Below are positions 5,387 through 39,480 of a stretch of DNA of 60,475 nt, piece after piece. Made by a program: the position numbers and the translations under genes. Under the pieces are notes generated by a model, which searched no databases, had not been told where the DNA came from, and saw only the letters and a program-made list of their open reading frames with translations. Origin of the DNA: Ralstonia pickettii (GTDB lineage: Bacteria > Pseudomonadota > Gammaproteobacteria > Burkholderiales > Burkholderiaceae); the NCBI RefSeq assembly GCF_001699815.1, contig NZ_MCGB01000066.1, positions 1-60,475 of the forward strand, written 5' to 3'. Each line of letters begins with the position of its first letter. Position 1 is the first letter of the stretch.

Positions 5387-6790
5387 TTACAGCTCAAGCT
5401 GCTCCAGCACTTTCCCCTTGGTTTCGATGCCGAGGAAGTGGATAGTGACTGCCGCCAGGATGGGCACCAAAGCCAACAGCAAGAACGCATTGCTGATGTT
5501 GCCCGAGCCGATGGTCGATCCGATCAGCATGGGTGAAAAGATGGCCGCAATCTTCAGCCACGCGCCGCCCATGCCGCAGCCGATCGCCCGGATATTGGTC
5601 GGGTACAGCTCCGGCGTATAGACATAGGCAGTGATGAAGCCGCACGCCATCAACCCCAGCGCCAACGAGCACAACCCCGCCACCACATAGAGCGACTGCT
5701 CGTGCAGCAGCCCAGCCAGCGCCAGCGAGACGCCGCAGAGTACGAACGACACGACCATCACGGGTTTGCGGCCTACCTTGTCGACGATCATCGCGCAGAC
5801 CAACGAGCCGACCACACCCAGCACCGACGCCAGCGCGGCCAAATTCAGCGCCAGTTGCAGCGGCGCGTGATAGATCGTCTTGTAGACCGTCGGCAGCCAC
5901 GTCGACAGACCGTACTGGATAAAACCGCACGTCGCCCACAGCATGGCCACGACCACCGTGCGCTTGATGTACACGGGGCCGAACAGATCGCGCATGCCGC
6001 GCTTCGGGTGGCGGTGCGACATCTGCTCGAAGGCCGAGGTATCGCCCAGCGGAGGCAGCGGCCCCTTCGCCTTGGCTTCAAAGCGTGCCTGCGCGGCATC
6101 GGCCTCGGCCATGCGTCCATTGGTCGCCAGCCAGCGCGGGGACTCCGGCACGGCCTTGGGCAGCGTGAAGAACAGCACGAGCGGAATGCCACCGAGAAAG
6201 TACATCACCTCCCAGCCGAAATGCGGTACAAGCCAGGCCCCAAGCGCGTTGGACACCAGCAAACCAATCGGGAACACCACCTCGTAGAGCAGCACGAAGC
6301 GCCCGCGGCCATGGGCACGCGTGACTTCGTTGATGTATGTGGCCGCTACGGGCAGCTCGCCACCCAAGCCGATGCCCTGCACGATACGCAGCGCTGCAAA
6401 CACGGCAAAACTGGGCGCCACGCCGCACAGCAGGCTCATCAAACCGATGATGCCCGCGCTATAGCCGATCATGCGCACGCGGCCGAATCGCTCCGCAAAC
6501 ATCGGGAACACCAGCGCACCGATCAACTGACCGATGCCGGGGGCACCGATCACAAAAGCAATCTGCGCCGGGGTCAGATGCCATTGCGCGATCAGCAGCG
6601 GCAGCGTAGCGGCAATGACGATCACGTCAAAGCCGTCGAAGAACGTCGCCAGCCCGATCAGCAGACGCGCACGCACGTGCATGCCGTTGCTCTTGAGCCG
6701 CTCGATGCGGGCAACGATCTTGCCCAGGCTCATCGCGCCCAGCGACGCATCGTGGTCAATTCCGCTATCAATCAAAACACCTGGCTTCAT
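5387..6790 (-). CDS. MFS transporter, probably an organic or aromatic acid carrier
   Basis: A 467-residue major facilitator with about 12 membrane segments. Loop 2-3 carries AERFGRVRM and the matching loop after helix 8 carries VDKVGRKPV; PESPRWL and the FFDGFD motif in helix 1 fit the sugar-porter/aromatic-acid:H+ symporter group. A good ribosome site (GGAAGGAG) precedes the ATG. It is the last gene of the leftward cluster, 71 bases beyond the porin, so it probably imports the substrate that the upstream operon degrades. Specificity is inference. Confidence 0.8.
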   Translation of the reverse strand: MKPGVLIDSGIDHDASLGAMSLGKIVARIERLKSNGMHVRARLLIGLATFFDGFDVIVIAATLPLLIAQWHLTPAQIAFVIGAPGIGQLIGALVFPMFAERFGRVRMIGYSAGIIGLMSLLCGVAPSFAVFAALRIVQGIGLGGELPVAATYINEVTRAHGRGRFVLLYEVVFPIGLLVSNALGAWLVPHFGWEVMYFLGGIPLVLFFTLPKAVPESPRWLATNGRMAEADAAQARFEAKAKGPLPPLGDTSAFEQMSHRHPKRGMRDLFGPVYIKRTVVVAMLWATCGFIQYGLSTWLPTVYKTIYHAPLQLALNLAALASVLGVVGSLVCAMIVDKVGRKPVMVVSFVLCGVSLALAGLLHEQSLYVVAGLCSLALGLMACGFITAYVYTPELYPTNIRAIGCGMGGAWLKIAAIFSPMLIGSTIGSGNISNAFLLLALVPILAAVTIHFLGIETKGKVLEQLEL

Positions 6791-6818
6791 GTGAAGCTCC
6801 TTCCGGAGGAAGTTGATG

Positions 6819-6844
6819 CGCCACTGGGTCGCTGCCCAGCGGCG
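6819..6844 (-). terminator. hairpin between porin and MFS genes
   Basis: On the minus strand CGCCGCTGGG pairs with CCCAGTGGCG (one G-U pair) over a six-base loop. There is no T run, so it looks more like an attenuating or mRNA-protecting hairpin than a full terminator. Confidence 0.4.
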
Positions 6845-6861
6845 CGCGTTGGGTCAGGACG

Positions 6862-7962
6862 TCAGAACGAGTGGTGCACCCCGGTGCTGACAACCATCTG
6901 GTTGCGCTGCGCCGCCACACCTACGCCGTTGATGGCAGCAGACTGCGCATCGCCGGACGCACGCTGATACGTACCTTGCACGTACACCTGCGTGCGCTTG
7001 GAAAACGCGTACACGTTGCCGAGGCTGAACTGGTTCCAGCGGGCGCCCTCGTACTTGCTGAAGGTATAGCCCACGTTGAGCGTATTGGCGGCGCTGTAAT
7101 GCCACGCGGTGCCGAGGTCGACGTTTTGCGCGCGGGCGTTGGCGCCACTCAGCGTGATGCGGGTCTGCGTATAGACCGCGTTGATCTGGACCGGCAGGTT
7201 GCTGAACTGATACAGCGTGCCGGCACCGAACGACTTGACCGAACTCATCGGCGTCATCACGCCGGGCACGAGCGTCGTGCCGAGCGTGTTCGTGATACCC
7301 AGGCGACCGGCGATGTCCAGCGCGCGGTCATTGGACGCGGTATAAGCCGCGGCTGCACGGAACCCGCCGTTGGTGTAGTACGCACCGAGGCTGTAACTGC
7401 GGCTTTTCGACGGCGAACCGGGTACCTCGCCAAAGCCGTACATGCCGCCCAGTTGCAGGCCGCCGAAGATGGGCGAGACGTAGCGCACGGCGTTGTCGAT
7501 CTGGAACTGGTTGGCCAGGTTGTCGAAGTTGCCGGGGTGGAACAGGTAGAAATTGGTGAGCTGGAACCCGTTGCTCAGGCGGCCGAGGTAGTCGAACATG
7601 AAGTCCGCTTGGTGGCCAAGCTGGATATTGCCCAAGCGATCGTTCGTCAGGCCCACCCACGCCGTGCGGTTGAACAGCTTGCCGGCGACCACGCTGCTGC
7701 CGGTGTCGCCCAGAAACCCCGATTCCAACTGGAAGATGGCCTGCGTACCGCCGCCGAGATCTTCCGAGCCGCGCAGGCCGAAACGGTCCGGCTGCATGGT
7801 GCCGGGGTCCATGCGCAGCGCCGAGCCGCTAGACGCGCTGCTCTTGAGGCTGTTGATGTAGGCCACGCCTTCATCAATGCTGCCGTACAGCGTCACGTTG
7901 CTCTGGGCCGCAGCGGTGCCAGCCAGGCTCATCGCCGCAATGGCGAACAAGGTTGTCTTCAT
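6862..7962 (-). CDS. Gram-negative porin (trimeric, Burkholderiales type)
   Basis: A 366-residue outer-membrane general porin. Residues 1-19 form a signal peptide (MKTTLFAIAAMSLAGTAAA, then QSNVTLYGSID). LRGSEDLGGGTQAIFQLE is the family hallmark, and the protein ends in HHSF, the terminal Phe used for barrel assembly. GGAGGAAA precedes the chosen start; a longer frame upstream has no signal sequence. It lies between the reductase and the MFS carrier, behind its own promoter region with a palindrome at 8049-8064. It probably brings the catabolic substrate across the outer membrane. Confidence 0.9.
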   Translation of the reverse strand: MKTTLFAIAAMSLAGTAAAQSNVTLYGSIDEGVAYINSLKSSASSGSALRMDPGTMQPDRFGLRGSEDLGGGTQAIFQLESGFLGDTGSSVVAGKLFNRTAWVGLTNDRLGNIQLGHQADFMFDYLGRLSNGFQLTNFYLFHPGNFDNLANQFQIDNAVRYVSPIFGGLQLGGMYGFGEVPGSPSKSRSYSLGAYYTNGGFRAAAAYTASNDRALDIAGRLGITNTLGTTLVPGVMTPMSSVKSFGAGTLYQFSNLPVQINAVYTQTRITLSGANARAQNVDLGTAWHYSAANTLNVGYTFSKYEGARWNQFSLGNVYAFSKRTQVYVQGTYQRASGDAQSAAINGVGVAAQRNQMVVSTGVHHSF

Positions 7963-8048
7963 TTGCAGTTTCCTCCACTGGACAAGGTGTCCGCCCCGCC
8001 AGTTGTTATCGCCGTCTTGGTGGACGAGCTGGTTGTGGTTCTTGCTTT

Positions 8049-8064
8049 GTTTCGTATGCGAAAC
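8049..8064. promoter_or_regulatory. candidate IclR-type operator upstream of the porin
   Basis: GTTTCG and CGAAAC form perfect arms around TATG, about 87 bases before the porin start. The same 6-4-6 layout, with nearly the same arms and the same following bases (ACGTC, then T/A-rich), occurs at 19566-19581 before the first gene of the upstream operon. The natural candidate to bind both is the IclR protein encoded at 15003-15830. Confidence 0.55.
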
Positions 8065-8089
8065 GTCGTTTAAAAGAAAAACAGGGCGC

Positions 8090-8123
8090 AAAAAAAGACG
8101 GCGCGGCTGGTCAGGCCGGCGCC
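8090..8123 (-). terminator. rho-independent terminator after the reductase gene
   Basis: Reading leftward, a GC-rich stem (GGCGCCGGCC facing AGCCGCGCC) is followed by a run of seven T. It lies 15 bases after the reductase stop and separates the long operon from the porin/MFS unit. Confidence 0.7.
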
Positions 8124-8138
8124 TAAACCATCCTGCGC

Positions 8139-9089
8139 TTACAGATCGATCACCAGGCGCTTGCCCTTACAGCCGGATACGCAAACCATCATCGTCTGGT
8201 TGGATGCACGCTCGCTCTTGGAAAGCACGCTGTCACGGTGGTCGGGCTCGCCTTCGAGCACGCGCGTTTCGCACGAGCCGCACACGCCTTCCTTGCAGCT
8301 GTGTTCCACCTCGACGCCAATCTCCAACAGCGCGTCGAGCAGCGACTTGCCCGCCGGTACACACAACTCGGCACCGTTGCGCGCGAGCTTGACCTGGTAT
8401 TCGCCCTCCTGCACCGATTCCACACCGGGGTCGGCCGCAAAGCGTTCAATATGGACGTTGGTGTAGCCCAGCGCCTCACAGGCCGCCTCGAATGCCCGCA
8501 GCATCGGGCCGGGGCCGCAGCAATAGAAATGCGTATCGGCCGGATGCCCTGCAAGCAGCGCTTTCAGATCGGGGGCGCCACCGGCTTCTGCGTCCAGGTG
8601 AAAACGCACCGCTTCGCCATGGGCGGCAAGCTCATCGGCAAAGGCCGCTTCGGCACGCGAGCGGGCGCAATACAGCATCGAGAACGCCTTGCCTTGCTCG
8701 GCCAGGCGACGCGCCATGCAGACGATGGGCGTCACGCCGATGCCACCTGCAACCAGCACGGTACGCGGCGCGGTTTCGTCCAGCTCGAAGTGATTGCGCG
8801 GGCCGCCGATCTTGAGCGTCGAACCGACGCGCAATTGCTCGTGCACATAGCGCGATCCGCCGCGGCTGTTGCGGTCGAGCAGCACGCCGACCACATAACG
8901 GTCACGCACCTCTGGCGCGCCGCACAGCGAATAGCTGCGCACCAGCCCGTTGCCGAGATGCAGTTCGATATGCGCGCCGGGTGCGTACTCGGGCAGCGTT
9001 TTGCCGTCGACATCGCGCAGCTCCACGCTCACGATGCCTTGGGCTTCGTAGCGCATGGCGTGCACGCGCAGGTTGAGGGGGGAATTCAT
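8139..9089 (-). CDS. VanB-type (phthalate dioxygenase reductase family) oxidoreductase
   Basis: A 316-residue electron-transfer protein. Order of domains: flavin-binding barrel with RSYSLCG (about 71-77), NAD-binding domain with VAGGIGVTPI (about 112-121) and CCGPGPML, then a C-terminal plant-type [2Fe-2S] ferredoxin with the ligand set CKEGVCGSC and a last Cys in MVCVSGC. It passes electrons from NAD(P)H to a Rieske oxygenase, almost certainly the one encoded at 18085-19152. It is the last gene of the operon, followed by a terminator. Confidence 0.9.
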   Translation of the reverse strand: MNSPLNLRVHAMRYEAQGIVSVELRDVDGKTLPEYAPGAHIELHLGNGLVRSYSLCGAPEVRDRYVVGVLLDRNSRGGSRYVHEQLRVGSTLKIGGPRNHFELDETAPRTVLVAGGIGVTPIVCMARRLAEQGKAFSMLYCARSRAEAAFADELAAHGEAVRFHLDAEAGGAPDLKALLAGHPADTHFYCCGPGPMLRAFEAACEALGYTNVHIERFAADPGVESVQEGEYQVKLARNGAELCVPAGKSLLDALLEIGVEVEHSCKEGVCGSCETRVLEGEPDHRDSVLSKSERASNQTMMVCVSGCKGKRLVIDL

Positions 9090-9110
9090 AGCACGTCTCT
9101 CTGCAACGTT

Positions 9111-10073
9111 TCAGCGCTTTTCCGTGAGGAACTTGCCTTCCGGGCCGGCGACGTTTTTCTGCCGGCGTGTGTTGCCGTCAATGCCGCCGTCGATGGCCCA
9201 TTCGGCGAACACGGTCGGGCCGGGCTCGAAATCGCGCGGCTGCCAGTCGGCGTCAAGCTGGTCTTCATCGGCGTAGTACTCGATCAAGCCACCGGCAGGG
9301 TTCTTGAAGTACCAGAAGTACGCCGACGAAATCGGGTGACGACCCGGGCCTAGTTGCGTTTCCCAGCCGCAGCGCGACACATGCATGCCACCGCCGAACA
9401 CTTCGTGGATGTCGCGCACGGTGAAGGCGACGTGGTTGAGCCCGCTCTTCGCCTGCGGCGTTTGCAGCAGGAACAGATCGTGATGGCCGCCTTCCGGCTC
9501 ACAGCGCAGGAACGCCCCGCGGCCCGGGTAGTGGTCGGACGGCACAAAGCCGAGCTTGTCGATGTAAAAGCGCTCCGTGGCCGCCACGTCCTTCACGAAG
9601 AAGACCACGTGGCCCACTTCGATGGGCGTGGCACGCGCGTAGATCGGGCTCGGTTGATTGCGGCGCGGTTTGTCCGTCCATGTGTTCATGGCTGCGCATT
9701 GCACGTCGACATCGCGCTTGGTGGTCAGTTGCACGCGCACTGCCAGGCCGTTCGGGTCGGTGCAGCCGACGCGGCCGTCGGCGTGCACATAACCGGGCTG
9801 GTCAGCCAGTTTGTCGACCAGGCGATCGAGCACAGCCTGCGAATCGGTGCCCCAGATCACCTCGCACAGCGTCGGGCCGGCTTCCATGGCGGCCGGCAGC
9901 GTGGCATCGTCCCTGCGCTTGACGCGCACGCGGCAGCCGTTGAGCGTTTCGAACAGCAGGCCGCTGGCGTCTTCCGATTGCAGGGCAAGGCCCCAATCCA
10001 GGAAGAACTGCTTGCAGGCGGCGAGGTCGTCGGCACCGTAGACGATTTCGTCGATGCCTCGAATCGTGTTCAT
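9111..10073 (-). CDS. two-domain VOC (glyoxalase/extradiol dioxygenase-like) protein
   Basis: A 320-residue protein with two vicinal-oxygen-chelate modules. The C-terminal module shows the usual metal-ligand positions: His in GHVVFFVKD (about 156), His in GLNHVAFTVRD (about 215) and Glu in GGLIEYY (about 265). The layout fits type I extradiol ring-cleavage dioxygenases, but other VOC activities are possible. It stands between the aldehyde dehydrogenase and the reductase in a tight operon, consistent with ring cleavage after oxygenation. Confidence 0.75.
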   Translation of the reverse strand: MNTIRGIDEIVYGADDLAACKQFFLDWGLALQSEDASGLLFETLNGCRVRVKRRDDATLPAAMEAGPTLCEVIWGTDSQAVLDRLVDKLADQPGYVHADGRVGCTDPNGLAVRVQLTTKRDVDVQCAAMNTWTDKPRRNQPSPIYARATPIEVGHVVFFVKDVAATERFYIDKLGFVPSDHYPGRGAFLRCEPEGGHHDLFLLQTPQAKSGLNHVAFTVRDIHEVFGGGMHVSRCGWETQLGPGRHPISSAYFWYFKNPAGGLIEYYADEDQLDADWQPRDFEPGPTVFAEWAIDGGIDGNTRRQKNVAGPEGKFLTEKR

Positions 10074-10109
10074 CTTGATCTCCTGTGGTCTGGGTGTTTT
10101 GTTTCAGCT

Positions 10110-11612
10110 TCAGTTGGCGTTGGCCCAGGCCAGCGGCTGTTCATTCAAGCCCCAGTAAAGGCTCTTCTGCTCCATGTATTGCAGGATGCCGAGTCGGCCC
10201 TTCTCGCGGCCGAGGCCGCTGTCGCGCCAGCCGCCAAACGGCGTCGAGATCGAGAACTGCTTGTATGTGTTGATCCACACGTTGCCGGCCTGCACCGCGC
10301 GGCCGATGCGCCATGCGCGCTTGTAGTCGCGCGTCCAGATCCCGGCGGCCAATGCGTAGACGCTGTCGTTGGCCTGTTCGATCAATTCGTCTTCATCGTC
10401 GAACGGCATGGCGACGAGCACCGGGCCAAAGATTTCTTCCTGGCAAATGCGCGCGCTGTTGGTGAGCCCTTCGATGATGGTCGGCGTGTAGAAGTAACCC
10501 GACTCACAGCCCACGATTGCTGGGCGCAAGCCGCCCGTGCGCAGGTGGCCGCCCTCTCCCACGCCCATCGCAACGTACGACTCGATGGTCTCGCGGTGAC
10601 GATCGGTGATCAGCGGGCCCATCTGCGTCGATTCATCGGCCGGATTGCCGACACGCAGGCGTGCCGCGGCAGCGGCCAGACGATCCATGAACGGCTCGTA
10701 GAGCGAGCGCGCCACAAACAGGCGCGAACCTGCGATGCACGATTCGCCCGATGAACTGAAGATGCCGTACAGCACGCCATTCACGGCGTGGTCGAGGTCG
10801 GCATCTTCAAACACCATCGTCGGCGATTTACCGCCGAGTTCGAGCGACACCGGCATCATCTTGTCGGCCGCAATGTGCGCGATATGGCGGCCCGTGTTCG
10901 TGCCTCCCGTGAACGACACGCGACGCACCAGCGGATGCTTGGTGATCGCATCGCCAATCACGGAGCCCTTGCCGGGCAGCACGCTGATCATGCCCTTCGG
11001 CACGCCCGCCTCTTCACAGATGGCGGCAAGTTCCAGTGCCATCAGCGGTGTGACTTCAGCCGGTTTGACGACGACGGCGTTGCCCGCGGCCAGCGCAGGC
11101 GCCATCTTTTGCGCTTCGCTGGCAATCGGCGAATTCCATGGCGTGATGGCCGCCACCACGCCCATGGGCTCATGCACGCTCATCGTCAGGCAATCGCCGC
11201 GCATGGGCGTGAGCGACTCTTCCAGTGTCTCGCATGCGGCGCCGAAGAACTGGAACGTGGCCGCAGCGCTTGCCACCAGGGCGCGCGTTTCGTTGATCGG
11301 CTTGCCGTTATCCAGCCGCTGGCGTTGCGCAAGTGCTTCGCTGCGCGAGCGGATCAGCTCGGCGATGCGGTACAGGACGGCGGCGCGTTCGTGCGGCTTG
11401 CGCTGCGCCCAGCCGCTGGAGAGGAAGGCGCGATAGGCACCGGCCACAGCTTCTTCCACGTCGGCGACGCTGGCAGCGTTGAGTTCCGCCACCACTTCGC
11501 CCGTGGCGGGGTAGCGCGTGACATAGCGCTCGCCGGTGCCGAGGCGCCATTCGCCTGCGATGCAGATCGGCAGCAACGAGGTCGCAGTTGCGTTCAGGGT
11601 AGAGACAGTCAT
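10110..11612 (-). CDS. NAD(P)-dependent aldehyde dehydrogenase
   Basis: A 500-residue member of the ALDH superfamily. PWNSPI, KPAEVTPL, the Glu motif LELGGKSP and the nucleophile motif GESCIAGSR (Cys catalytic) are all present, as is the C-terminal PFGGWRDSGLGREKG. The sequence resembles betaine/hydroxymuconic-semialdehyde dehydrogenase types. The start MTVSTLNATATS was chosen because the longer frame runs into the upstream gene. It probably oxidises the aldehyde made by the decarboxylase or by ring cleavage. Confidence 0.9.
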   Translation of the reverse strand: MTVSTLNATATSLLPICIAGEWRLGTGERYVTRYPATGEVVAELNAASVADVEEAVAGAYRAFLSSGWAQRKPHERAAVLYRIAELIRSRSEALAQRQRLDNGKPINETRALVASAAATFQFFGAACETLEESLTPMRGDCLTMSVHEPMGVVAAITPWNSPIASEAQKMAPALAAGNAVVVKPAEVTPLMALELAAICEEAGVPKGMISVLPGKGSVIGDAITKHPLVRRVSFTGGTNTGRHIAHIAADKMMPVSLELGGKSPTMVFEDADLDHAVNGVLYGIFSSSGESCIAGSRLFVARSLYEPFMDRLAAAAARLRVGNPADESTQMGPLITDRHRETIESYVAMGVGEGGHLRTGGLRPAIVGCESGYFYTPTIIEGLTNSARICQEEIFGPVLVAMPFDDEDELIEQANDSVYALAAGIWTRDYKRAWRIGRAVQAGNVWINTYKQFSISTPFGGWRDSGLGREKGRLGILQYMEQKSLYWGLNEQPLAWANAN

Positions 11613-11628
11613 GGCGCAATGGCCTCGC

Positions 11629-12464: not shown

Positions 12465-14204
12465 TCACGCCACCACCGTCGTGCCGTCCGTGGCGCATGC
12501 AGCAGCGCGCTCGCCCTGACCGTCCTTGGCCTGCTGGTTGACCGGCGGGCCTGCAAAGATCGTCTTGAAGCTGCCGATGGAGAGCATGTCGATCTCCATC
12601 AGGAACGGGCCTTCGCCGCTGGTGGCTTCCTTCAACACGCTGCCCACATCGGCCAGATCCGACACGCGGCGATGGCGCAACTGCAGCGACTGCGCAAGCG
12701 CCGCGTAGTCCGGCGTGTGCAGATCCACGTAATGGCGGCGGCCGCCGTACTGCGCGTCCTGAATGTTCTTGATGACGCCGTAGCCCTTGTCGTTCATCAG
12801 CACGATGACGAGGTTGGCGCGCTCCTGCACCGCAGTCGCCAATTCGCCGAGGTTCAGGATGAAGCCGCCGTCGCCGGCCAGGCAGAACGTCGTCTTGCCG
12901 GATTCGATCGCGGCCGCACCGATGGCCGCACCAATGCCCATCGCCAAACCTTGGCCGATACCGCCACCCAGCGCATGCACGCCGGCGCGCGAATCAAAGA
13001 TACGGAGCTGGCGATTGCCCCACGTGCTGTTCGACACGGTCACGTCGCGCACCCAGTTGAACTCACGTCCCACGGCGGCTTGCAACGCCTCCACAAGCTT
13101 TGCGTACGGGCCGAGGCCATCGATCAGTCCGCGCACGGCCGCATCGTGTGCAGCGCGCAGGTCGGCGGCGAATGTCGCGTCGATCTGCATCTTCTTTTCC
13201 AGCCGATCCGCCAAGCCTTCCAGCGCGAGGGCCGAATCGCCGCACACGAAATAGTCGCTGGCGTAGCAACGGCCTTCCGCCGAGGCATCCGCATCGACGC
13301 GGTACAGCGGACGCGGCAGTTTCAGTTCGTACTTGAGCGTTTCATTGCCACGCAGGCGCGAGCCGACCACGACCATCGCGTCGCACGTCTGGTAGAACGC
13401 CTCGACCGGCTTGTGCAGGTTGAATGCGCCCAGCGAGCGCGGATCATCTTCCGGCACGATGCCGCGGCCCTGCGTGCTGGTGACCACGCCAAAGCCAAGG
13501 TCCATCAGGCGCTTGACCTGCTTCGCGGCGTGGCGGGCACCACCGCCCAGCCACAGCATCGGACGGCGCGCGCGCGACAGGCGTTCAGCCAGTTCGTCCA
13601 GCGCGTGGGCCGACGGCACATGCTGAGGCACCTGCAGCGGGCGCAGGTCATCCGGCATCGGGATCAGCGCGGCCTGGATGTCGATGGGAATCTCCACGCT
13701 CACCGGGCCGGCCGGTGCCGTCAGCGCAGTCTGCACCGCCAGCTTCATCGTGCTGATCGCCGTGTCGGCACTGCGCACGCGGAAGGCAGCCTTGGAGACG
13801 GCCTTGAGCATCGTGAGCTGGTCCGGCGCTTCGTGGATGTAGGCAAGGCTCTGGTCCAGGTACGGCGTTTCGATCTGGCCCGTGATGTGCAGCAGCGGCG
13901 TGCCGGCGGTCAGGGCTTCGACCATTGCGCCCGCCGCATTCCCGGCAGCGGTGCCGGTGCTGGTCAGGCACACACCGAGGCCGCCCGTGGTCCGGGCATA
14001 GGCGTCGGCCATGTTGGCGCCGCCGGCTTCACCGCGCGCCATGACGAAGCGGATCTTGCCGCGCTCGCCCATCGCATCGAGGATGGGCATGTTGTGGATC
14101 GAGATGACGCCAAAGGCGGCCTTGACCTCGCAGGCCTCCAGGAAGGCTGCAATCGCGTGGCCCACCGTGACCAGCTGTTGTTCCTGTTGTTGTCTGTTAA
14201 GCAT
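12465..14204 (-). CDS. thiamine diphosphate-dependent enzyme (acetolactate synthase/decarboxylase type)
   Basis: A 579-residue three-domain ThDP enzyme. The N-terminal Pyr domain carries the activating Glu (about residue 59) in ARGEAGGANMADAYAR. The central domain has LWLGGGARHA. The C-terminal PP domain carries the cofactor motif GDGGFILNLGELATAV followed by MNDKGYGVI (about 445-480). The usual loop FGxPG is replaced by FGVISIHNMP, so this is not an ordinary acetolactate synthase. A 2-oxoacid decarboxylase or carboligase is likely. Its start overlaps the preceding SDR gene by 8 bases. Confidence 0.85.
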   Translation of the reverse strand: MLNRQQQEQQLVTVGHAIAAFLEACEVKAAFGVISIHNMPILDAMGERGKIRFVMARGEAGGANMADAYARTTGGLGVCLTSTGTAAGNAAGAMVEALTAGTPLLHITGQIETPYLDQSLAYIHEAPDQLTMLKAVSKAAFRVRSADTAISTMKLAVQTALTAPAGPVSVEIPIDIQAALIPMPDDLRPLQVPQHVPSAHALDELAERLSRARRPMLWLGGGARHAAKQVKRLMDLGFGVVTSTQGRGIVPEDDPRSLGAFNLHKPVEAFYQTCDAMVVVGSRLRGNETLKYELKLPRPLYRVDADASAEGRCYASDYFVCGDSALALEGLADRLEKKMQIDATFAADLRAAHDAAVRGLIDGLGPYAKLVEALQAAVGREFNWVRDVTVSNSTWGNRQLRIFDSRAGVHALGGGIGQGLAMGIGAAIGAAAIESGKTTFCLAGDGGFILNLGELATAVQERANLVIVLMNDKGYGVIKNIQDAQYGGRRHYVDLHTPDYAALAQSLQLRHRRVSDLADVGSVLKEATSGEGPFLMEIDMLSIGSFKTIFAGPPVNQQAKDGQGERAAACATDGTTVVA

Positions 14205-15006
14205 GACGGGAGTGTCCTCCGGAGATATCGATGTGGCTGCCCGTGGTGTACGAAGACAACGGCGAGGCAAGGAACAGAATGGCGCGGGCAGCCTCTTCGG
14301 GCAGGCCCAGGCGTCCAAGGGGAATATGTTTTTGCGTGGCCAGGCGGCGCGTCCATGCGGCCCAGTCGAGATGGCGGTCTTCTTCAGGTCGTGCCTCGAA
14401 GCGGCGGCGCCATTGGCCGGACTCCACCAGGCCGATCAGGATGCCGTTGACGCGCACGCCCTTCGGTGCAAATTCGGTCGCCATCGAACGCACAAGATTG
14501 AGCACACCCGCACGCGCAGCCGAGGTGGCGACCATGTGCGGCTCGGGCTGCTGCGCGAGCAGCGAATTCACGCAGACGATCGCGCCGTGCTCCGAGCGCT
14601 CGAGTTGCGGCAGGAAAGCGCGCGTGGGATGGATCACGGAGAAGAACTTGAGATGCAGCTCCTGCGTCCACGCGGCATCGTCGGTATCGGCAAACGTCGA
14701 GACACGGCCTTGGCCCGCGTTGTTGACCAGCATGTCGACGGGGCCGAGGGCTTGCTCCACGGCGTCGGCAAACGCTGCCATCTGCGCGGCGTCGAGCACG
14801 TCGCACGTTGCGGCAAACAGCCGGGCGTTTGGGAAGCGGCTGCGCAGACCTTGTTCGGCTTGCGCGAGGCGTTCGGCATTGCGCCCGCACAGCGCCACGA
14901 CAGCGCCGGCTTCCAGCAGCAGTTCAACGGTGGCCAGGCCGATGCCGGAGGAGCCACCCGTCACGACAGCCGTCTTGCCAGTCAGGTCGATCATCGGCAT
15001 GGTCAT
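14197..15006 (-). CDS. SDR-fold protein lacking the catalytic Tyr-Lys pair
   Basis: A 269-residue short-chain dehydrogenase. The cofactor motif TGGSSGIG (about 17-24), NNAG (95-98) and Ser148 are in place, but the normal YxxxK is TSAAR: Thr161 replaces Tyr and Arg165 replaces Lys, exactly 13 residues after the Ser as in normal enzymes. The C-terminal ending GSHIDISGG is typical. So it may bind nucleotide without normal reductase chemistry, or use a different mechanism. It starts within the IclR stop codon (ATGA overlap) and overlaps the ThDP gene by 8 bases, so it is translationally coupled on both sides. Confidence 0.85.
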   Translation of the reverse strand: MTMPMIDLTGKTAVVTGGSSGIGLATVELLLEAGAVVALCGRNAERLAQAEQGLRSRFPNARLFAATCDVLDAAQMAAFADAVEQALGPVDMLVNNAGQGRVSTFADTDDAAWTQELHLKFFSVIHPTRAFLPQLERSEHGAIVCVNSLLAQQPEPHMVATSAARAGVLNLVRSMATEFAPKGVRVNGILIGLVESGQWRRRFEARPEEDRHLDWAAWTRRLATQKHIPLGRLGLPEEAARAILFLASPLSSYTTGSHIDISGGHSRHA

Positions 15007-15830
15007 TCGCGGAACAGGTTGACGACCTTGCCGCCTGCGGGGCGGTAGTCCAGCAGGTAAGACAGCTCGCCGGCAGCGGCGCGCACCTTGTCGATCATCA
15101 GATCGAGCTGTGCGGCTTCAATGCGCGGCGACGGAATCGTCGTGCCGAGGGCTGCTACCACCTTGCCGGCGCGGTCGAGCACCGGCGCAGCAATCGTCGA
15201 GATGTTGGCTTCGAAGAAACCTTCCTGCAGCACGTAGCCGTGTTCGCGGTCGCGCTGGACCATCTCGAACAGCTCTTCGACCGTGCGCGGGGTATTGGCG
15301 GAAAACACTTCCAGCTGCGGCTCCGGATAGAGCTGGCGCAGCTCAGCCAGCGACAGATCGGCCAGCAGCACACGACCCAGCACCGTGGCGTGCGCCGGCA
15401 GGCGCGTGCCGACATTCACCGAGCTGGTGAACGGCGTGGGCGCCACGGATTTCGCCACGTAGACGATCGAGCGGCCATCGCGCACGACGAGGTTGCACGG
15501 ATAGTGAATCTCGTCGCGCAGACGATCGAGCAGCGGGCGGCCCAGCTCGGTCAATTCCAGCGACGCGAGATATTCAAAGCCCAGGCGCAGCACCGCCATG
15601 CCGAGGCGAAAATCGCGGCCGCCGTCGACGCGTTCGATAAAACCCATCACTTCAAGTGTGGTCAGCAGGCGGAACACCGTGGAGCGCGGCACCTTCAGGC
15701 GGCGCGCCAGTTCCGGCGCCGACAGCACACGGTCTTTGTGGCTGAACTCGCACAGCAGGCGCAGGCCGCGTTCGAGCCCCGGCACGATGTACTTTTCTTG
15801 CACGTCTTCTGGGATGAGGTCGTTGCTCAT
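15003..15830 (-). CDS. IclR-family transcriptional regulator of the operon
   Basis: A 275-residue regulator. The N-terminal winged helix is clear (LSAPELARRLKVPRSTVFRLL about 36-56), followed by GFIERV and the ligand-binding domain with LPAHATVLGRVLLA and the C-terminal VAALGTTIPSPRI. It lies in the middle of the operon it likely controls, as an unusual internal regulator gene. Candidate operators are the paired palindromes at 8049-8064 and 19566-19581. Ligand unknown. Confidence 0.9.
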   Translation of the reverse strand: MSNDLIPEDVQEKYIVPGLERGLRLLCEFSHKDRVLSAPELARRLKVPRSTVFRLLTTLEVMGFIERVDGGRDFRLGMAVLRLGFEYLASLELTELGRPLLDRLRDEIHYPCNLVVRDGRSIVYVAKSVAPTPFTSSVNVGTRLPAHATVLGRVLLADLSLAELRQLYPEPQLEVFSANTPRTVEELFEMVQRDREHGYVLQEGFFEANISTIAAPVLDRAGKVVAALGTTIPSPRIEAAQLDLMIDKVRAAAGELSYLLDYRPAGGKVVNLFRE

Positions 15831-15842
15831 ACGTCTTGGCGC

Positions 15843-16745
15843 TTAGGCGTTTTGGGATTGGGAGAGAACAGCGTGTTCGATCCAGCCTGCAACAGCGTCA
15901 GGCGCATCGATATAAGAGGCATGCCCGGCCGACGGCACAAGCGCAAACGGCAGATCAAACATCTTTGCCAGCGCTTCGCAACCTTCCGGTGGTGTAATGC
16001 CGTCGACATCGCCGCAAGCGATCTGCGCTAGCGTCGATTCGGGGCGTTTTTTCAGATAGGCGCCGATGTCGTCGCCGCTGAGCATCGCCACAGCCTGGCG
16101 ATAACCACCGTCGTTGAGGCGCTTCATGTTCCAGCGCACCCAGGCGCGTTCTTCGTCGGTGGCATCTGGGCGCAGCAGGTGTGCGTGGTGCGACTCCGCC
16201 ATGCCGTCGATGCCAAGCTGGTCGAGCGTTGCAAGCCGCTGGGCCTGCACGCTGCGGGACTTGTCCTCCTGCCCCGCTTGGCCGTAGCCCTGCGCGGGGT
16301 TCAGAAGCAGCAGGCACTTCGGCTGCATCGCGGCTGGCGCGGCGGCCACATACGCCGATGCCATCAGCGCGCCCAGCGAATGACCGACGATCGCATCGGG
16401 CGTCACATCCAACGCGGCAACCCATGCCTGCAACCGCACCGCGTAATCGGCAGCGCGCGGTGCACCCTCTGCAAGCGGCGTGGAATTGCCGTAGCCCGGC
16501 GCATCCCATGCCAGCACGCGCATGTTGTGCGAAAGAACCTGCGCGCAAGGCAGCCATGACGCGGCGCTGGAGCTGATGCCGTGCAACAGCACCACCACCG
16601 GCCCGCGCTCGCCCCATTGCCGATAGCCGATGCGATCGCCGTGCGCGTTGATGGCGACGGTGCGTTCGGCAAACCCGGCGCCCAGCGCGGCAAGCGCGTC
16701 GGCAACACGGAACGGGTGGGAAGACATGACAGCCTGCACGCTCAT
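15843..16745 (-). CDS. alpha/beta hydrolase
   Basis: A 300-residue alpha/beta-fold hydrolase with oxyanion motif LLHGISSSAASW (about 54-65), nucleophile elbow GHSLG (Ser, about 121), acid region CGDVDGITPPEG and the final His in SAGHASYID (about 277). The core resembles meta-cleavage product hydrolases and related C-C hydrolases. It begins 4 bases after the cupin stop. A second in-frame ATG six codons in is possible. Confidence 0.85.
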   Translation of the reverse strand: MSVQAVMSSHPFRVADALAALGAGFAERTVAINAHGDRIGYRQWGERGPVVVLLHGISSSAASWLPCAQVLSHNMRVLAWDAPGYGNSTPLAEGAPRAADYAVRLQAWVAALDVTPDAIVGHSLGALMASAYVAAAPAAMQPKCLLLLNPAQGYGQAGQEDKSRSVQAQRLATLDQLGIDGMAESHHAHLLRPDATDEERAWVRWNMKRLNDGGYRQAVAMLSGDDIGAYLKKRPESTLAQIACGDVDGITPPEGCEALAKMFDLPFALVPSAGHASYIDAPDAVAGWIEHAVLSQSQNA

Positions 16746-16749
16746 GGCA

Positions 16750-17286
16750 TCAACGCTTGATTTTGGCGAGCGGATGCTCGGGCGGATACGTCGGCGTGAT
16801 CGGTTTTTTGGCGCCGAGCATCACGCACATCAGCGCGTCTTCATCGCCGATGTTGATTTCTTCGCGGTACACGCCGGGCGGCACCGAGACGAGATCGCGA
16901 TCGGTCAGGATGGTTTCGTAGCGCTCGCCGTCCTTCTCCAGCACCAGCTTGAGCTTGCCGCGAATGATGAAGAACACCTCTTCCACATCGGTGTGCAGAT
17001 GCGACGGGCCTTCGTGGCCGGCCGGAATGACCATCGTCGAAAACGTGAAGTGCTCCGCCGGCACCGTGTTGGTGTCTGCGGCCACGCCCGTGCCGCCCGT
17101 GCCGAGGTAGCGCATTTGCGCACGGCGGTATTTCGGGTCGAAGTCGGCCTGGAACTTGAGGGCGTCCCAGTCGTAGCGGCGGGTGGAGAAACGCGCCACG
17201 CGGCTGTTCATCCAGTCTTCAAACGACGCGCCTTCCGGGCGGTCCCACGTGCGTTGCACTTGCTGTTGTTCGGAGAGATCGCTCAT
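16750..17286 (-). CDS. cupin-domain protein
   Basis: A 178-residue protein with one cupin barrel. The metal-binding motif reads PAGHEGPSHLHTDVEEVFFIIRG in two parts: GPSHLHTDVEE, then the second motif around VPPGVYREEINIG, where the usual His is absent. An N-terminal region of about 60 residues, rich in Arg and Trp, precedes the barrel. AGAGG-like ribosome site before the start at 17286. Role unknown: dioxygenase, isomerase or small-molecule sensor are all possible. Confidence 0.8.
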   Translation of the reverse strand: MSDLSEQQQVQRTWDRPEGASFEDWMNSRVARFSTRRYDWDALKFQADFDPKYRRAQMRYLGTGGTGVAADTNTVPAEHFTFSTMVIPAGHEGPSHLHTDVEEVFFIIRGKLKLVLEKDGERYETILTDRDLVSVPPGVYREEINIGDEDALMCVMLGAKKPITPTYPPEHPLAKIKR

Positions 17287-17318
17287 TGAATACCTCTTCT
17301 GAATGGTGTGTGGATGCA

Positions 17319-18092
17319 TTACTGCATGACAAAACCGCCGTTGACGGCCAGCGTCTGGCCCGTCACGAATCGGGAAAGGTCGGACAGCGCGAACAGCACG
17401 GCGCCGCACACGTCGTCCGGCAGTTGATCGCGCGAAATGGCGCGCTGGTCGCGGTACAGCGCATGGCGGTGCGCCGGCACGTATTCGGTGGCTTCCACCA
17501 GCGTCAGGCCCGGCGCGATGGCGTTGACGGTGATGCCGTCTGCGCCGCATTCGCGCGCCAGAGACTTCGTCATGCCGATGACAGCGCTCTTGCTGGCCAC
17601 GTAAGCCAACAGGTTCGGCGCGCCCCACAGCGGTGTGTCCGACGACAAATTGACGATGGCGCCGCGGCCCGATGCCTTGAGTGCCGGCAGGCAAGCCGTC
17701 GTCATCAACCATGTGCCGCGCACGTTGACGTTCATCACGCGGTCCCAGGTCTCGATGTCGATCGACGATGCGTCGCGCCCGCCCGAGTTGGTAATGGCCG
17801 CGTTGTTGACAAGACCGTCGAGCCCGCCCAATGCCTGCGCCGCTGCCGCAGCGCACGCCTGAATCGAAGCCGGATCGCCAAGATCAAGCGTGAAGCCATG
17901 CGCATCGAAACCTGCCGCACGCAGCGCCGCCGCCTCTTCCTGCACGCGCTCGCCAAGAATGTCGGCCAGCGCGACAGCGCCACCGGCTTCGGCGATCGAC
18001 TTGGCAAAGGCCAGCCCCAGACCGCGCGCGGCGCCCGTCACGAGCACCTTGCGGCCAGCCAGCAGCCCGGCGGTTGAATTGCGCTCAGGCAT
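17319..18092 (-). CDS. SDR-family oxidoreductase (canonical)
   Basis: A 257-residue short-chain dehydrogenase with intact motifs: TGAARGLG (about 19-26), NNAA, the Ser in NLSSDTPLWG, and YVASK with catalytic Tyr and Lys. It ends TGQTLAVNGGFV as usual. It overlaps the end of the oxygenase gene by 8 bases. A dihydrodiol or alcohol dehydrogenase step after the Rieske oxygenase is the natural guess. Confidence 0.9.
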   Translation of the reverse strand: MPERNSTAGLLAGRKVLVTGAARGLGLAFAKSIAEAGGAVALADILGERVQEEAAALRAAGFDAHGFTLDLGDPASIQACAAAAAQALGGLDGLVNNAAITNSGGRDASSIDIETWDRVMNVNVRGTWLMTTACLPALKASGRGAIVNLSSDTPLWGAPNLLAYVASKSAVIGMTKSLARECGADGITVNAIAPGLTLVEATEYVPAHRHALYRDQRAISRDQLPDDVCGAVLFALSDLSRFVTGQTLAVNGGFVMQ

Positions 18093-19152
18093 GTTGGGCT
18101 TCCGTGGGAACGGGCTTGATCATGGCAACCGGCGCATCGGCCAACTCAGCGGCGGCGCGGCGTGCAAGCACACGGCGGATACGCGTGATGCCGATGTCGT
18201 GCTGATACAGCGTCTCGTGCTCGCGCGCCTCGGGTGCCATCGACTCCAGCACCACACGGTCCTGCTCGAGCACATCCCAGTGCAGGCCTTCCAGGCGGTT
18301 GCGATACAGGAATCGCCACACATCGCGCTGCCAGCCTTGCACGTGGCGCGTGCGCCAGAAGTAGACGATGCAGTGCTCTTCATCCACTGGCGTCACGATG
18401 CCGATGATCGTGAACGGGCCGCCGGGGCCGACCTTCGGCTGATACGGAATCGAGAGGCGCAGCCACATCGTGCCGGTCTCGCCAAACTCGGTCCAATCGA
18501 AGTTCACGCCGCGCTGGCCGGTCTTCTGGAACATGATCCCGTGGTCGGTTTCAACCACTTCCATCACGGCCTTTTTCTCGCCGCTGGCCATCGAGTGCGA
18601 CACGGCGTGCAGGTAGGCGCCGTGCATGGGGTCCATGACGTTGTCGATGGCATAGCGGTAGTTGACGTTCCAATGCGCGAAGCAGAGGAAGTGGCTGTGC
18701 TCGTCACTGGTCAGTTCTTCGGGCAGGCGCAGCGTGCCGACCGCGTCGTCGAACTCTGACGGGGCCTTGTCGCCAAACCACAGGAAGATGGCACCGGCAC
18801 GCTCCTGCACCGGGTAGCTGCGCACGCAGGTCTTGCCCTCCATGGGGCAAGCGTCGACCGCCGGCACGCTCGTTACCGTACCCTGGCCGTTCACTTCAAC
18901 GCCGTGGTACCAGCAGGCCACGTGGTCGCCCAGGTTCCAGCCCATCGACAGGCGCGCACCGCGATGCGGGCAGCGGTCTTCCAGCGCATGCACCTGGCCG
19001 GCAGTGTCACGCCACAGCACGATGTTCTGGCTCAAACGCGTGATGCCCACCGGCGCGTTTTTCACATTCCACGACGCCGCCACCGGATACCAGTAGTTGC
19101 GCAGACCGGTGTTGATGCGCGCTTCCTTCTGCGCTTCCTTGTTGCCTTCCAT
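18085..19152 (-). CDS. Rieske-type aromatic ring-hydroxylating or O-demethylating oxygenase
   Basis: A 355-residue VanA/phthalate-4,5-dioxygenase-like oxygenase. The Rieske cluster ligands are Cys61, His63, Cys80 and His83 (CPHR...CWYHG). The mononuclear iron site is visible in DNVMDPMHGAYLH, with Asn171, Asp174, His177 and His182 in the family spacing. Electrons would come from the VanB-type reductase at 8139-9089. Substrates of this subclass include methoxy- and carboxy-aromatics; the actual one is not readable from sequence. Confidence 0.9.
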   Translation of the reverse strand: MEGNKEAQKEARINTGLRNYWYPVAASWNVKNAPVGITRLSQNIVLWRDTAGQVHALEDRCPHRGARLSMGWNLGDHVACWYHGVEVNGQGTVTSVPAVDACPMEGKTCVRSYPVQERAGAIFLWFGDKAPSEFDDAVGTLRLPEELTSDEHSHFLCFAHWNVNYRYAIDNVMDPMHGAYLHAVSHSMASGEKKAVMEVVETDHGIMFQKTGQRGVNFDWTEFGETGTMWLRLSIPYQPKVGPGGPFTIIGIVTPVDEEHCIVYFWRTRHVQGWQRDVWRFLYRNRLEGLHWDVLEQDRVVLESMAPEAREHETLYQHDIGITRIRRVLARRAAAELADAPVAMIKPVPTEAQHA

Positions 19153-19232
19153 TGCTTGCCTCTTCTGATGGGGTTGAGCCGTGCGCCTCTGCGGGCGATG
19201 CGGCGTCGAATCGTGTTGGATCCAGCCGGCGC

Positions 19233-19538
19233 TCAGGCGCCCAAGCGGCGCATCTCGGCCAGGAACGTGTCTTCCGTCCAGGTCTCGCCGCCGGCGGCGT
19301 TGCGCGGGCCGCGCTCGTTCAGTACGGCCACGATGTCGGCCGGCGTTTGCGCGCCACCCAGGAATGCCGCTTCCAGCGAATCGGCCAATTGATTCTCATA
19401 GGCTGTCGGCTCGGTCGCGCGCGTTTGCCACACCAGATTGGCGGCGTAACCCGGGCGCTCGACCCGGCCCTTGCCAGCGACGTTGTTTGGAGAAATCGGC
19501 TCCCACGGAGCGAGGTCGGGGTTGTATTGCGGTTGCAT
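19233..19538 (-). CDS. small protein with recombinase-like helix-turn-helix, operon leader gene
   Basis: A 101-residue protein opening MQPQYNPDLAPWEP, with the core NLVWQTRATEPTAYENQLADSLE and an end reading ETWTEDTFLAEMRRLGA. I remember this family as recombinase-like HTH proteins commonly encoded beside VanA-type oxygenases; its role is unknown. GGAG nine bases upstream supports the start at 19538 over earlier in-frame starts at 19553 or 19556. It is the first gene of the operon, with the candidate operator 28 bases upstream. Confidence 0.75.
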   Translation of the reverse strand: MQPQYNPDLAPWEPISPNNVAGKGRVERPGYAANLVWQTRATEPTAYENQLADSLEAAFLGGAQTPADIVAVLNERGPRNAAGGETWTEDTFLAEMRRLGA

Positions 19539-19565
19539 ATCTGTCGACTCCATCACGTTTCGCTT

Positions 19566-19581
19566 GTTTTACCTATGAAAC
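19566..19581. promoter_or_regulatory. candidate IclR-type operator at the operon head
   Basis: GTTTTA-CCTA-TGAAAC, an inverted repeat with one mismatch. It is flanked by an outer pair CGTTTC (19556-19561) and GAAACG (19577-19582). Over 25 bases it matches the porin site (8049-8073) at 17 positions by my alignment. No convincing -35/-10 pair could be placed nearby. The remaining gap to 19809 shows nothing further. Confidence 0.55.
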
Positions 19582-39474: not shown

Positions 39475-39480
39475 GAACAC

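Follow-up and report, generated by a model that had tools for sequence, protein, structure and literature searches.

Twelve tightly packed genes that read leftward in the window (the whole 60,475-nucleotide stretch of Ralstonia pickettii DNA analysed here), together with a porin and an MFS carrier, may encode a full pathway for the aerobic breakdown of an N-heteroaromatic acid. The likeliest acid is kynurenate (4-hydroxyquinoline-2-carboxylate) or a close quinoline-2-carboxylate; we infer this substrate, and give the reading as a whole about an even chance of being right. A broader proposal we hold slightly less firmly, namely that the cluster supplies the genes so far missing for the quinoline pathway in two phyla, including its later steps, a C=C reductase of SDR fold that lacks the Tyr/Lys pair, and the capture of iminosuccinate.

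Kynurenate, an end product of tryptophan, is active in the nervous and immune systems. To our knowledge, its breakdown by bacteria has been known for sixty years as chemistry without assigned genes, and kynurenate 7,8-dioxygenase, the dihydrodiol dehydrogenase and 7,8-dihydroxykynurenate 8,8a-dioxygenase have long been without sequences. If our reading is true, the gene set would make it possible to predict kynurenate removal by bacteria of the gut, lung or soil, and human-associated Klebsiella and Acinetobacter could feed on kynurenate from the host. The "aspartate dehydrogenase" of these genomes would gain a catabolic role instead of NAD biosynthesis, roles would emerge for widespread families that lack a clear function (NF005468, NF005470, the operon's cupin and HTH_62), and SDR chemistry without the Tyr/Lys pair would have an example.

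Organisation of the operon

As the earlier note had described, the twelve genes run leftward and are accompanied by a porin and a carrier; they extend from 19538 to 8139, and profile searches find on the minus strand all the enzyme types that it had named, as well as the internal IclR gene. With our chosen starts, the junctions from the HTH_62 gene to the reductase gene measure 80, -8, 32, 4, 12, -4, -8, 32, 16, 36 and 21 bases (a range of -8 to +80), and the overlaps of 4-8 bases noted before are three, of 8, 4 and 8 bases. Beyond the reductase gene, 176 bases lead to the porin gene and 71 more to that of the MFS carrier. Three long open reading frames require later starts, at 17286 for the cupin, 12432 for L-aspartate dehydrogenase (AspDH) and 14204 for the ThDP-dependent enzyme. 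Judged by this spacing alone, the twelve genes are probably co-transcribed; scans for sigma-70-like promoters (0 sites, with 2.1 expected in shuffles) and for terminator-like sites (11, with 11.8 expected) are uninformative on transcription.

At the head of the operon lies a gene for a small "recombinase-like helix-turn-helix" protein, HTH_62 (19233..19538; Pfam PF20552, 1.7e-25), the one operon gene absent from the earlier listing. A tblastn search detects it in 55 of the 69 named loci, and it lies next to the Rieske gene both in annotated clusters and in Streptomyces. The acid would be imported by the porin (6862..7962; PF13609) and by the MFS carrier (5387..6790), which is aromatic-acid symporter-like (TIGR00895, 217 bits, below the cut-off of 419), and it would be sensed by the PcaR/PobR-like regulator of the IclR family (15003..15830; PF01614, PF09339), which scores 174 bits with the PcaR/PobR family TIGR02431, below the cut-off of 285.

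Proposed dihydroxylation and ring cleavage

The route would begin with dihydroxylation of the benzo ring by a Rieske oxygenase and its VanB-type reductase. The oxygenase (VanA_C type, 18085..19152; PF00355 and PF19112) is our candidate kynurenate 7,8-dioxygenase. Its Rieske CxH...CxxH motif and its iron-binding N-x-x-D-x-x-H-x-x-x-x-H ligands are the same in all 88 aligned loci, and by these residues it belongs with the alpha subunits of Rieske non-haem iron oxygenases. Electrons would come from the reductase (8139..9089; PF00175, PF00111), in which an NAD domain precedes a C-terminal 2Fe-2S domain. In Caballeronia, Klebsiella and Acinetobacter it is swapped for a ferredoxin and an FAD reductase, and at other loci an FAD reductase and a flavodoxin-like protein are the Rieske electron partners; judged by gene content, the electron donors are interchangeable between clusters.

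SDR2 (17319..18092; PF13561) would then convert the cis-dihydrodiol to the 7,8-diol. It is a classical SDR with the catalytic Tyr-x-x-x-Lys, Tyr and Lys each being present in 90 of 92 aligned loci. Its gene shares 8 bases with the Rieske gene, and the two remain neighbours even where the pair sits apart from the rest of the cluster.

Cleavage of the diol at 8,8a, leaving a dihydroxypicolinate with a 3-carboxy-3-oxopropenyl chain, would fall to the VOC protein (9111..10073; PF00903), our candidate 7,8-dihydroxykynurenate 8,8a-dioxygenase. The iron ligands H155, H214 and E265 are conserved in 83 of 83, 82 of 82 and 81 of 82 aligned loci, and the second-shell H198, H246 and Y255 in 82 of 82 each, all at positions that we take to be those of BphC. 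These residues argue for a type I extradiol dioxygenase. Its scores with the NCBIfam equivalogs for catechol 2,3-dioxygenase, HpaD and biphenyl-diol dioxygenase (55, 62 and 40 bits) lie below the cut-offs of 320, 321 and 366.

Proposed shortening of the side chain

SDR1 (14197..15006; NF005468, 468 bits, cut-off 266) would next reduce the conjugated C=C, the ThDP-dependent enzyme (12465..14204; NF005470, 945 bits, cut-off 495) would decarboxylate the 2-oxo acid to an aldehyde, and the aldehyde dehydrogenase (10110..11612; PF00171, 562 bits) would yield 5-(2-carboxyethyl)-4,6-dihydroxypicolinate. The catalytic Glu of the ThDP enzyme is present in 93 of 93 aligned loci, and the catalytic Cys and Glu of the aldehyde dehydrogenase in 99 and 98 of 99. 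SDR1 falls outside the classical SDRs: in place of the Tyr/Lys pair, Thr (Thr159, numbered from a start at 15000) occurs in 90 of 95 aligned loci and Arg (Arg163) in 91; the Streptomyces and Vibrio proteins have both residues too. The closest solved relative, "Short Chain Oxidoreductase Q9HYA2" (PDB 3lf1/3lf2, 429 bits), has the same PEPHMVATSAARAGV stretch; Q9HYA2 is, we presume, a Pseudomonas aeruginosa accession.

The kynurenate pathway proceeds by EC 1.14.99.2, 1.3.1.18 and 1.13.11.10, followed by reduction, decarboxylation and aldehyde oxidation. For each of these six first steps, the operon encodes one enzyme of the appropriate class, with SDR1 counted tentatively. The earlier note knew of no textbook pathway that the operon matches; in our view it probably does match one, the quinoline (kynurenate) pathway, by enzyme class and order, with kynurenate as the putative substrate.

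The same enzymes can be arranged as an amino-acid route, on the model of the AruH/AruI logic of arginine catabolism: AspDH would deaminate a side chain, the ThDP enzyme would decarboxylate the resulting 2-oxo acid, the aldehyde dehydrogenase would form the acid, and the Rieske protein would demethylate an aromatic. The closest relative of the Rieske protein in the PDB is an O-demethylase (DdmC, which acts on dicamba; 1.4e-21), the ThDP enzyme shows some likeness to 5-guanidino-2-oxopentanoate decarboxylase (265 bits, against a cut-off of 500), and 91 of 113 tabulated loci combine ThDP, AspDH and aldehyde dehydrogenase genes. We nevertheless find such a route improbable, because two characterised AspDHs are strict for aspartate/oxaloacetate and because the intact extradiol dioxygenase and the Rieske-tied dehydrogenase point to ring dihydroxylation.

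Proposed opening of the pyridone and capture of nitrogen

To complete a kynurenate route, the single-domain cupin (16750..17286; PF07883) and the alpha/beta hydrolase (15843..16745; PF12697) would open the pyridone and cleave the C4-C5 bond, releasing glutarate and iminosuccinate. Homology gives no assignment for this ring opening, and the role of the two proteins, the hydrolase acting as a ring-opening or C-C/C-N hydrolase, is our proposal. The HxH and E of the cupin are invariant in 89 of 89 aligned loci, and its relatives occur in 28 plasmid records, among them all 26 Rieske records. The hydrolase retains its catalytic Ser in 89 of 90 aligned loci and its His in all 90. A search with its AlphaFold model (pLDDT 94) is unspecific: esterases and lipases rank first, and an enol-lactonase, E-2-(acetamidomethylene)succinate hydrolase and C-C hydrolases appear lower down.

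AspDH (11629..12432; NF009827, 530 bits, cut-off 226) would finally reduce iminosuccinate to L-aspartate. Activity has been published for the AspDH enzymes of Klebsiella pneumoniae and Delftia. The former (strain 34618), presumably the product of the cluster's gene, is specific for aspartate/oxaloacetate and has a Km of 53 mM for ammonium, which would suit an enzyme that reduces an imine already formed. The R. eutropha AspDH of the literature could not be assigned to the cluster, since a Cupriavidus pinatubonensis genome has two AspDH-family genes.

Public annotation places AspDH in NAD biosynthesis, which would make its position in the operon incidental. Some relatives do adjoin tryptophan dioxygenase and kynureninase genes without the cluster (L146, L147), and 11 of 20 loci retrieved have an AspDH (42-65% identical to that of the window) without the ThDP gene, so the enzyme is found in other settings too. 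Yet AspDH is present in all clusters compared and remains part of the catabolic cluster in both phyla, from Ralstonia to Streptomyces. We therefore reject a NadX/NAD role at this locus and regard it as very improbable indeed.

Conservation and variation of the cluster

A gene-neighbourhood comparison across many genera supports the conserved catabolic operon that had been suspected. All nine core genes are present in 61 of the 69 named loci, and the cluster's ThDP family scores above its cut-off in 15 of 16 genomes of the genus (the window's own genome counted); such an association is not chance. Klebsiella, Acinetobacter, a roseobacter and Streptomyces hold nearly the full set, which makes the cluster, on sequence evidence, a conserved unit common to two phyla. 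The VOC gene is absent from the sequence examined at two Ramlibacter loci (L093 and L095), alphaproteobacterial matches to VOC and cupin are weak (mostly about 25-35%), and 12 kb of the K. pneumoniae cluster have no megablast match in E. coli RefSeq genomes.

Three features point to nitrogen in the substrate: AspDH in all clusters, RidA-family genes (22 of 69 named loci, in 19 of the 22 between Rieske and reductase genes) and a large subunit of the xanthine-dehydrogenase family, which often hydroxylates N-heterocycles. The subunit occurs in 6 of the 69 loci and also at L136 and L140, where it is 63-65% identical to that of Caballeronia NK8; it most resembles 4-hydroxybenzoyl-CoA reductase (609 bits, against a cut-off of 995) rather than a known quinoline enzyme. 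None of the ten named Ralstonia loci has RidA, the xanthine-dehydrogenase-like Mo enzyme or an extra FAD enzyme.

Variation in the upper genes allows that the same chemistry serves another bicyclic or N-heteroaromatic acid, such as a plant quinolone, a pyridine dicarboxylate or a chromone-type compound. The extra FAD enzyme, nearest to 6-hydroxynicotinate 3-monooxygenase, is present in 20 of 69 loci, an arylsulfatase-like gene at L166-L168 and L093, and GH3 and TonB receptor genes in a Novosphingobium cluster; VOC homologues (about 33-38%) lie in other clusters with FAA-hydrolase genes, some also with cyclase or cupin genes. However, a flavonoid or chromone yields no nitrogen, which would leave AspDH and RidA useless, and single-ring pyridines have no obvious need for the trio of reduction, decarboxylation and oxidation. 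We consider a different acid possible, if rather unlikely.

The FAD enzyme is not supported as a true 6-hydroxynicotinate 3-monooxygenase, since in an alignment to 5eow, compared by eye, it differs at the residues that we take to bind the substrate (H47, C202, H211, Y215). Nor does it replace Rieske and SDR2 at L166-L168, where both lie just beyond the stretches first examined. Vibrio nigripulchritudo (L191) is the only locus with the FAD enzyme and without Rieske and SDR2 within 28 kb; the deposited sequence there breaks the reading frames of the ThDP and FAD enzymes.

Some observations weigh against kynurenate. Genes for tryptophan 2,3-dioxygenase or kynureninase occur in none of the 91 loci with ThDP, AspDH and aldehyde dehydrogenase, and the tryptophan dioxygenase gene of the window's own genome is on another contig. 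Klebsiella and Acinetobacter carry the cluster but are not known to have a kynurenine pathway, and so would need external kynurenate. As to glutarate, at the one locus tested the acyl-CoA dehydrogenase and CoA-transferase beside the Pseudosulfitobacter cluster score below the glutaryl-CoA family cut-offs. On the same side count the lack of VOC at the two Ramlibacter loci, the weak alphaproteobacterial matches, the lack of RidA, FAD enzyme and Mo enzyme at the Ralstonia loci, and the resemblance of the Mo enzyme to 4-hydroxybenzoyl-CoA reductase.

Comparison with known systems

The quinoline (kynurenate) pathway of pseudomonads was reportedly worked out as biochemistry in the 1960s by Hayaishi, Taniuchi and others. 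The operon offers a suitable gene for ring dihydroxylation, for dehydrogenation of the dihydrodiol, for extradiol cleavage and, in the side chain, for reduction, 2-oxo acid decarboxylation and oxidation of the aldehyde. The products differ, glutamate and alanine being reported whereas we predict aspartate and glutarate, although the latter could lead to the former. According to a review, pseudomonads convert kynurenate to glutamate, alanine and organic acids, and another paper cites the formation of 7,8-dihydroxykynurenate and a pathway in P. fluorescens.

With the vanillate and dicamba O-demethylase systems, of which DdmC is the closest PDB match, the operon shares a Rieske/VanA_C alpha subunit and a reductase with C-terminal 2Fe-2S domain; unlike in those systems, the oxygenase is tied here to a dehydrogenase and an extradiol dioxygenase, and other genera use a ferredoxin and an FAD reductase. 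P. aeruginosa PA3504-PA3511 presumably has eight genes in the order seen here, without an adjoining Rieske or VOC gene; if so, its substrate must differ. The SDR1 relative Q9HYA2 shares the Thr/Arg motif. One paper names PA3505 as a nicotinate-metabolism gene.

The earlier note had allowed that the set might already be assigned to a known pathway. In the literature searched, on kynurenate degradation genes, PA3505-PA3511, A1S_0955-0958 and AspDH with Rieske, we found no paper assigning it. Six terms searched for are all absent from the main text, gene list excluded, of a paper on the iad auxin (indole-acetate) operon (PMC12633357).

The isoflavone and flavonoid clusters ifc (Variovorax) and fde (Herbaspirillum) differ in their first enzyme, a flavin monooxygenase instead of a Rieske pair, and in a substrate without ring nitrogen. 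No cluster-borne flavin monooxygenase is found among the operon genes, and that of the L061 cluster has one match in the window's own genome, at 35% identity on a different contig. The main text on ifc (PMC11069340) contains none of the words "aspartate dehydrogenase", "thiamine", "Rieske" and "aldehyde dehydrogenase". According to that text, a glyoxalase-type enzyme is needed after the fused-ring 7,8-diol, a cupin double mutant accumulates a 2-hydroxy-4-pyranone, on which the cupin acts, and disruption of the cluster's alpha/beta hydrolase gene leaves daidzein degradation unaffected (PMC11069340). All three protein types have counterparts here, and by analogy the hydroxypyranone is the oxygen equivalent of the pyridone that we predict.

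Organization of the operon

Fourteen leftward genes lie within 5387-19581. Twelve of them run from 19538 down to 8139, with junctions of 80, -8, 32, 4, 12, -4, -8, 32, 16, 36 and 21 bases, in order; a porin follows 176 bases past the twelfth gene and an MFS carrier 71 bases past the porin. In gene order, their families are HTH_62, Rieske with VanA_C, an SDR (SDR2), a cupin, an alpha/beta hydrolase, IclR, a second SDR (SDR1), a ThDP-dependent enzyme, aspartate dehydrogenase (AspDH), aldehyde dehydrogenase (ALDH), a glyoxalase/extradiol dioxygenase (VOC) and a reductase with NAD and C-terminal 2Fe-2S domains. The gene list of the earlier note was correct in its family assignments, leaving out only the HTH_62 protein, and the 4-8-base overlaps that it claimed were measured as -8, -4 and -8. 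For three genes the start lies inside a longer ORF: cupin at 17286, ThDP at 14204 and AspDH at 12432. From the gene spacing, we infer that the operon is co-transcribed; consensus scans of the stretch gave no signal beyond chance level. Elsewhere in the window, homogentisate pathway genes (36655-41052; homogentisate 1,2-dioxygenase 38128-39474, fumarylacetoacetase 39781-41052) lie next to an MFS carrier, and 50440-56236 holds leftward genes for RND efflux, encoding an AcrB-type pump and an outer membrane factor.

A conserved unit that crosses phyla

The set had been suspected to be a conserved system, and the gene-neighbourhood search bears this out. A core of nine genes (SDR2, cupin, hydrolase, IclR, SDR1, ThDP, AspDH, ALDH, VOC) is complete in 61 of 69 loci, and the cluster is also present in Klebsiella, Acinetobacter and Streptomyces. 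The 69 loci, the nearest of which to the window are from Ralstonia, come from a genome scan with AspDH, a single-protein query that returns close relatives only; presence means a tblastn match of at least 30-38% identity and at least 40% coverage. The Rieske gene is matched in 66/69. Five of the eight incomplete loci are short or at contig ends (L069, L077, L087, L094, L096), two from Ramlibacter (L093, L095) are without SDR1 or VOC within the DNA compared, and L090 has only IclR and AspDH of the set. Among 20 further loci, eight carry most of the cluster (L136, L137, L139-L143, L155), L144 is truncated, and eleven (L138, L145-L154) have AspDH at 42-65% identity without ThDP, so that AspDH alone is not diagnostic of the cluster.

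Counting the own genome (113 contigs, 5.24 Mb) throughout, AspDH of the window type (E <= 1e-20) and ThDP family NF005470 each occur in 15/16 genomes of the genus. AspDH exceeds the NF009827 cut-off in 24/399 genomes of an order-level draw and 5/369 of a class-level draw; the ThDP family exceeds its own in 15/398 genomes drawn from the phylum.

In a plasmid collection of 72,556 records, some of which resemble chromosomes filed as plasmids, cupin relatives (E <= 1e-6) appear in 28. A Rieske relative (E <= 1e-80) is found in exactly 26 of these 28 and nowhere else, the other two being Vibrio nigripulchritudo. A plasmid of that species (L191) holds a reduced cluster that includes the FAD monooxygenase described below but, across 28 kb, matches neither Rieske nor SDR2; as deposited, its sequence splits the reading frames of both ThDP and the FAD enzyme. 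The cluster is present in annotated records of Caballeronia, Novosphingobium, Paracoccus, Nitratireductor, Pseudosulfitobacter, Klebsiella pneumoniae, K. aerogenes and Acinetobacter baumannii. An unannotated linear plasmid of Streptomyces chartreusis carries adjoining matches to Rieske, HTH_62, reductase, ThDP, SDR1, SDR2, cupin, hydrolase, AspDH and ALDH, with a partial VOC match (47% coverage) beside them; thus, the unit crosses phyla. In alphaproteobacteria other than Novosphingobium, VOC and cupin are matched only weakly, at about 25-35%, and their orthology there therefore depends on position and annotation.

Catalytic residues and oxygenase partners

Residues were counted over aligned loci above 60% coverage. 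The Rieske and mononuclear iron ligands are unchanged in 88/88; at the bridging position, 84 rows have Asp and four have Glu. VOC retains its metal triad (H155 83/83, H214 82/82, E265 81/82, one row being a stop) and second-shell H198, H246 and Y255 (82/82 each), by comparison with BphC numbering. SDR2 keeps Tyr/Lys in 90/92. SDR1 has Thr (90/95) and Arg (91/95) at these sites, a pair present in Streptomyces and Vibrio too; four rows with Tyr/Lys may be paralogous hits. A relative of SDR1, Q9HYA2 (3lf1), is presumably a P. aeruginosa protein. The ThDP Glu (93/93), ALDH Cys (99/99), hydrolase Ser (89/90) and His (90/90) and cupin HxH...E (89/89) are likewise retained.

In Caballeronia, Klebsiella and Acinetobacter, a ferredoxin and an FAD reductase stand in place of the VanB-type reductase; on three alphaproteobacterial plasmids, an FAD reductase and a flavodoxin-like protein do. 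Such replacement argues that the VanB-type reductase serves the Rieske oxygenase. In three genomes (G977, G1004, G1091) the Rieske gene is paired with SDR2 on the opposite strand, apart from the remaining cluster, which points to SDR2 as the oxygenase partner, as expected for a dihydrodiol dehydrogenase.

Proposed pathway

A Rieske oxygenase and YxxxK dehydrogenase that feed an intact extradiol dioxygenase imply ring dihydroxylation to a vicinal diol, followed by cleavage. The remaining genes would trim a 2-oxo acid chain through ThDP decarboxylase and aldehyde dehydrogenase, and would also have to supply a substrate for AspDH. To our knowledge, the quinoline pathway of kynurenate, whose steps are those of its EC entries, is the sole known pathway with this enzyme order. 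A review gives glutamate, alanine and organic acids as products of kynurenate in pseudomonads, and one paper cites 7,8-dihydroxykynurenate formation and a pathway in P. fluorescens. Aldehyde oxidation would leave 4,6-dihydroxypicolinate bearing a carboxyethyl chain; hydrolysis of the lactam and of the C4-C5 bond would then yield glutarate and iminosuccinate, the half-way product of AspDH. AspDH of K. pneumoniae strain 34618, presumed to be the product of the cluster gene, is described as aspartate-specific, with a Km of 53 mM for ammonium against 1.35 mM for oxaloacetate (PMC5554190). We infer that the enzyme probably reduces a ready-made imine rather than assimilating ammonia, because these values fit that better.

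The operon is very probably catabolic for a nitrogen-containing aromatic acid, acting via ring dihydroxylation and extradiol cleavage; that the substrate is kynurenate or a near relative is an even call. Several observations count against kynurenate. Tryptophan dioxygenase and kynureninase (own-genome queries, 166 loci searched) match in none of the 91 loci with ThDP, AspDH and ALDH, and only in four lacking this trio (L100, L131, L146, L147). In L146 and L147, AspDH (51%, 45%) adjoins these matches without ThDP or ALDH genes, probably a kynurenine/NAD setting. The single neighbour test for glutarate use came out negative, and a fold search with the hydrolase could not tell C-C hydrolases and esterases apart. 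Our predicted products also differ from those reported for kynurenate unless further metabolism is assumed.

The earlier note knew of no textbook pathway to match the operon; by enzyme order, the quinoline pathway would fit. Among the open-access papers listed, none gives genes for kynurenate degradation in its title or the opening of its abstract, though an assignment may exist in subscription papers, and none of those listed for PA3505-PA3511 or A1S_0955-0958 assigns the set. A1S_0956-0958 (AspDH, betaine-aldehyde dehydrogenase, acetolactate synthase) are listed among amino-acid catabolism genes for growth with mucin, with table values of 2.2-2.4 that we take as fold change (PMC5757984). PA3505 is placed under nicotinate metabolism and named a hypothetical pyrimidine biosynthesis gene (PMC9732424).

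Accessory genes

A RidA-family gene occurs in 22/69 loci. In 19 of them it lies in the Rieske-reductase gap; in L081 it follows the Rieske gene, and in two from Ramlibacter it is closer to the FAD enzyme than to the Rieske gene. It is found in none of the ten Ralstonia loci among the 69. RidA proteins hydrolyse imines. An FAD monooxygenase nearest to 6-hydroxynicotinate 3-monooxygenase (8e-87) is present in 20/69 loci and in alphaproteobacteria, without the substrate residues of that enzyme. Six of the 69 loci, all Cupriavidus, together with L136 and L140, carry a xanthine-dehydrogenase-family large subunit at 63-65% identity to that of Caballeronia NK8 (L135); its nearest families, 4-hydroxybenzoyl-CoA reductase and xanthine dehydrogenase, are both below cut-off. 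In Cupriavidus the gene lies some kilobases downstream of the cluster and may be a separate unit. In L135 (plasmid pNK84), there is a second Rieske-ThDP-VOC set, and the genes immediately after it encode three subunits of xanthine-dehydrogenase type and an SRPBCC protein.

In L166-L168 and L093, the stretch with the FAD monooxygenase also contains an arylsulfatase-like gene, whose families score below cut-off; a sulfate ester may be the form in which the substrate arrives there. On a Novosphingobium resinovorum plasmid (L129), a GH3 glycosidase and a TonB receptor lie immediately upstream of ThDP-AspDH-ALDH; here the substrate may arrive as a glycoside. Ralstonia L035, L038 and L039 have an additional ORF of about 440-490 aa between ALDH and VOC, which recurs in other groups, and the MFS carrier of the window is unmatched in these three loci.

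Comparison with isoflavone catabolism

In Variovorax isoflavone catabolism, an 8-hydroxylase forms a 7,8-diol, which builds up in a mutant of the glyoxalase-type gene ifcB; recombinant IfcB left substrate unconverted, and a hydrolase mutant retained daidzein degradation (PMC11069340). In a cupin double mutant, 2-hydroxy-5-(4-hydroxyphenyl)-4H-pyran-4-one builds up, and the cupin IfcD acts on it (PMC11069340). The pyridone predicted here would be the nitrogen analogue of this pyranone, which offers an analogy for the cupin of the operon.
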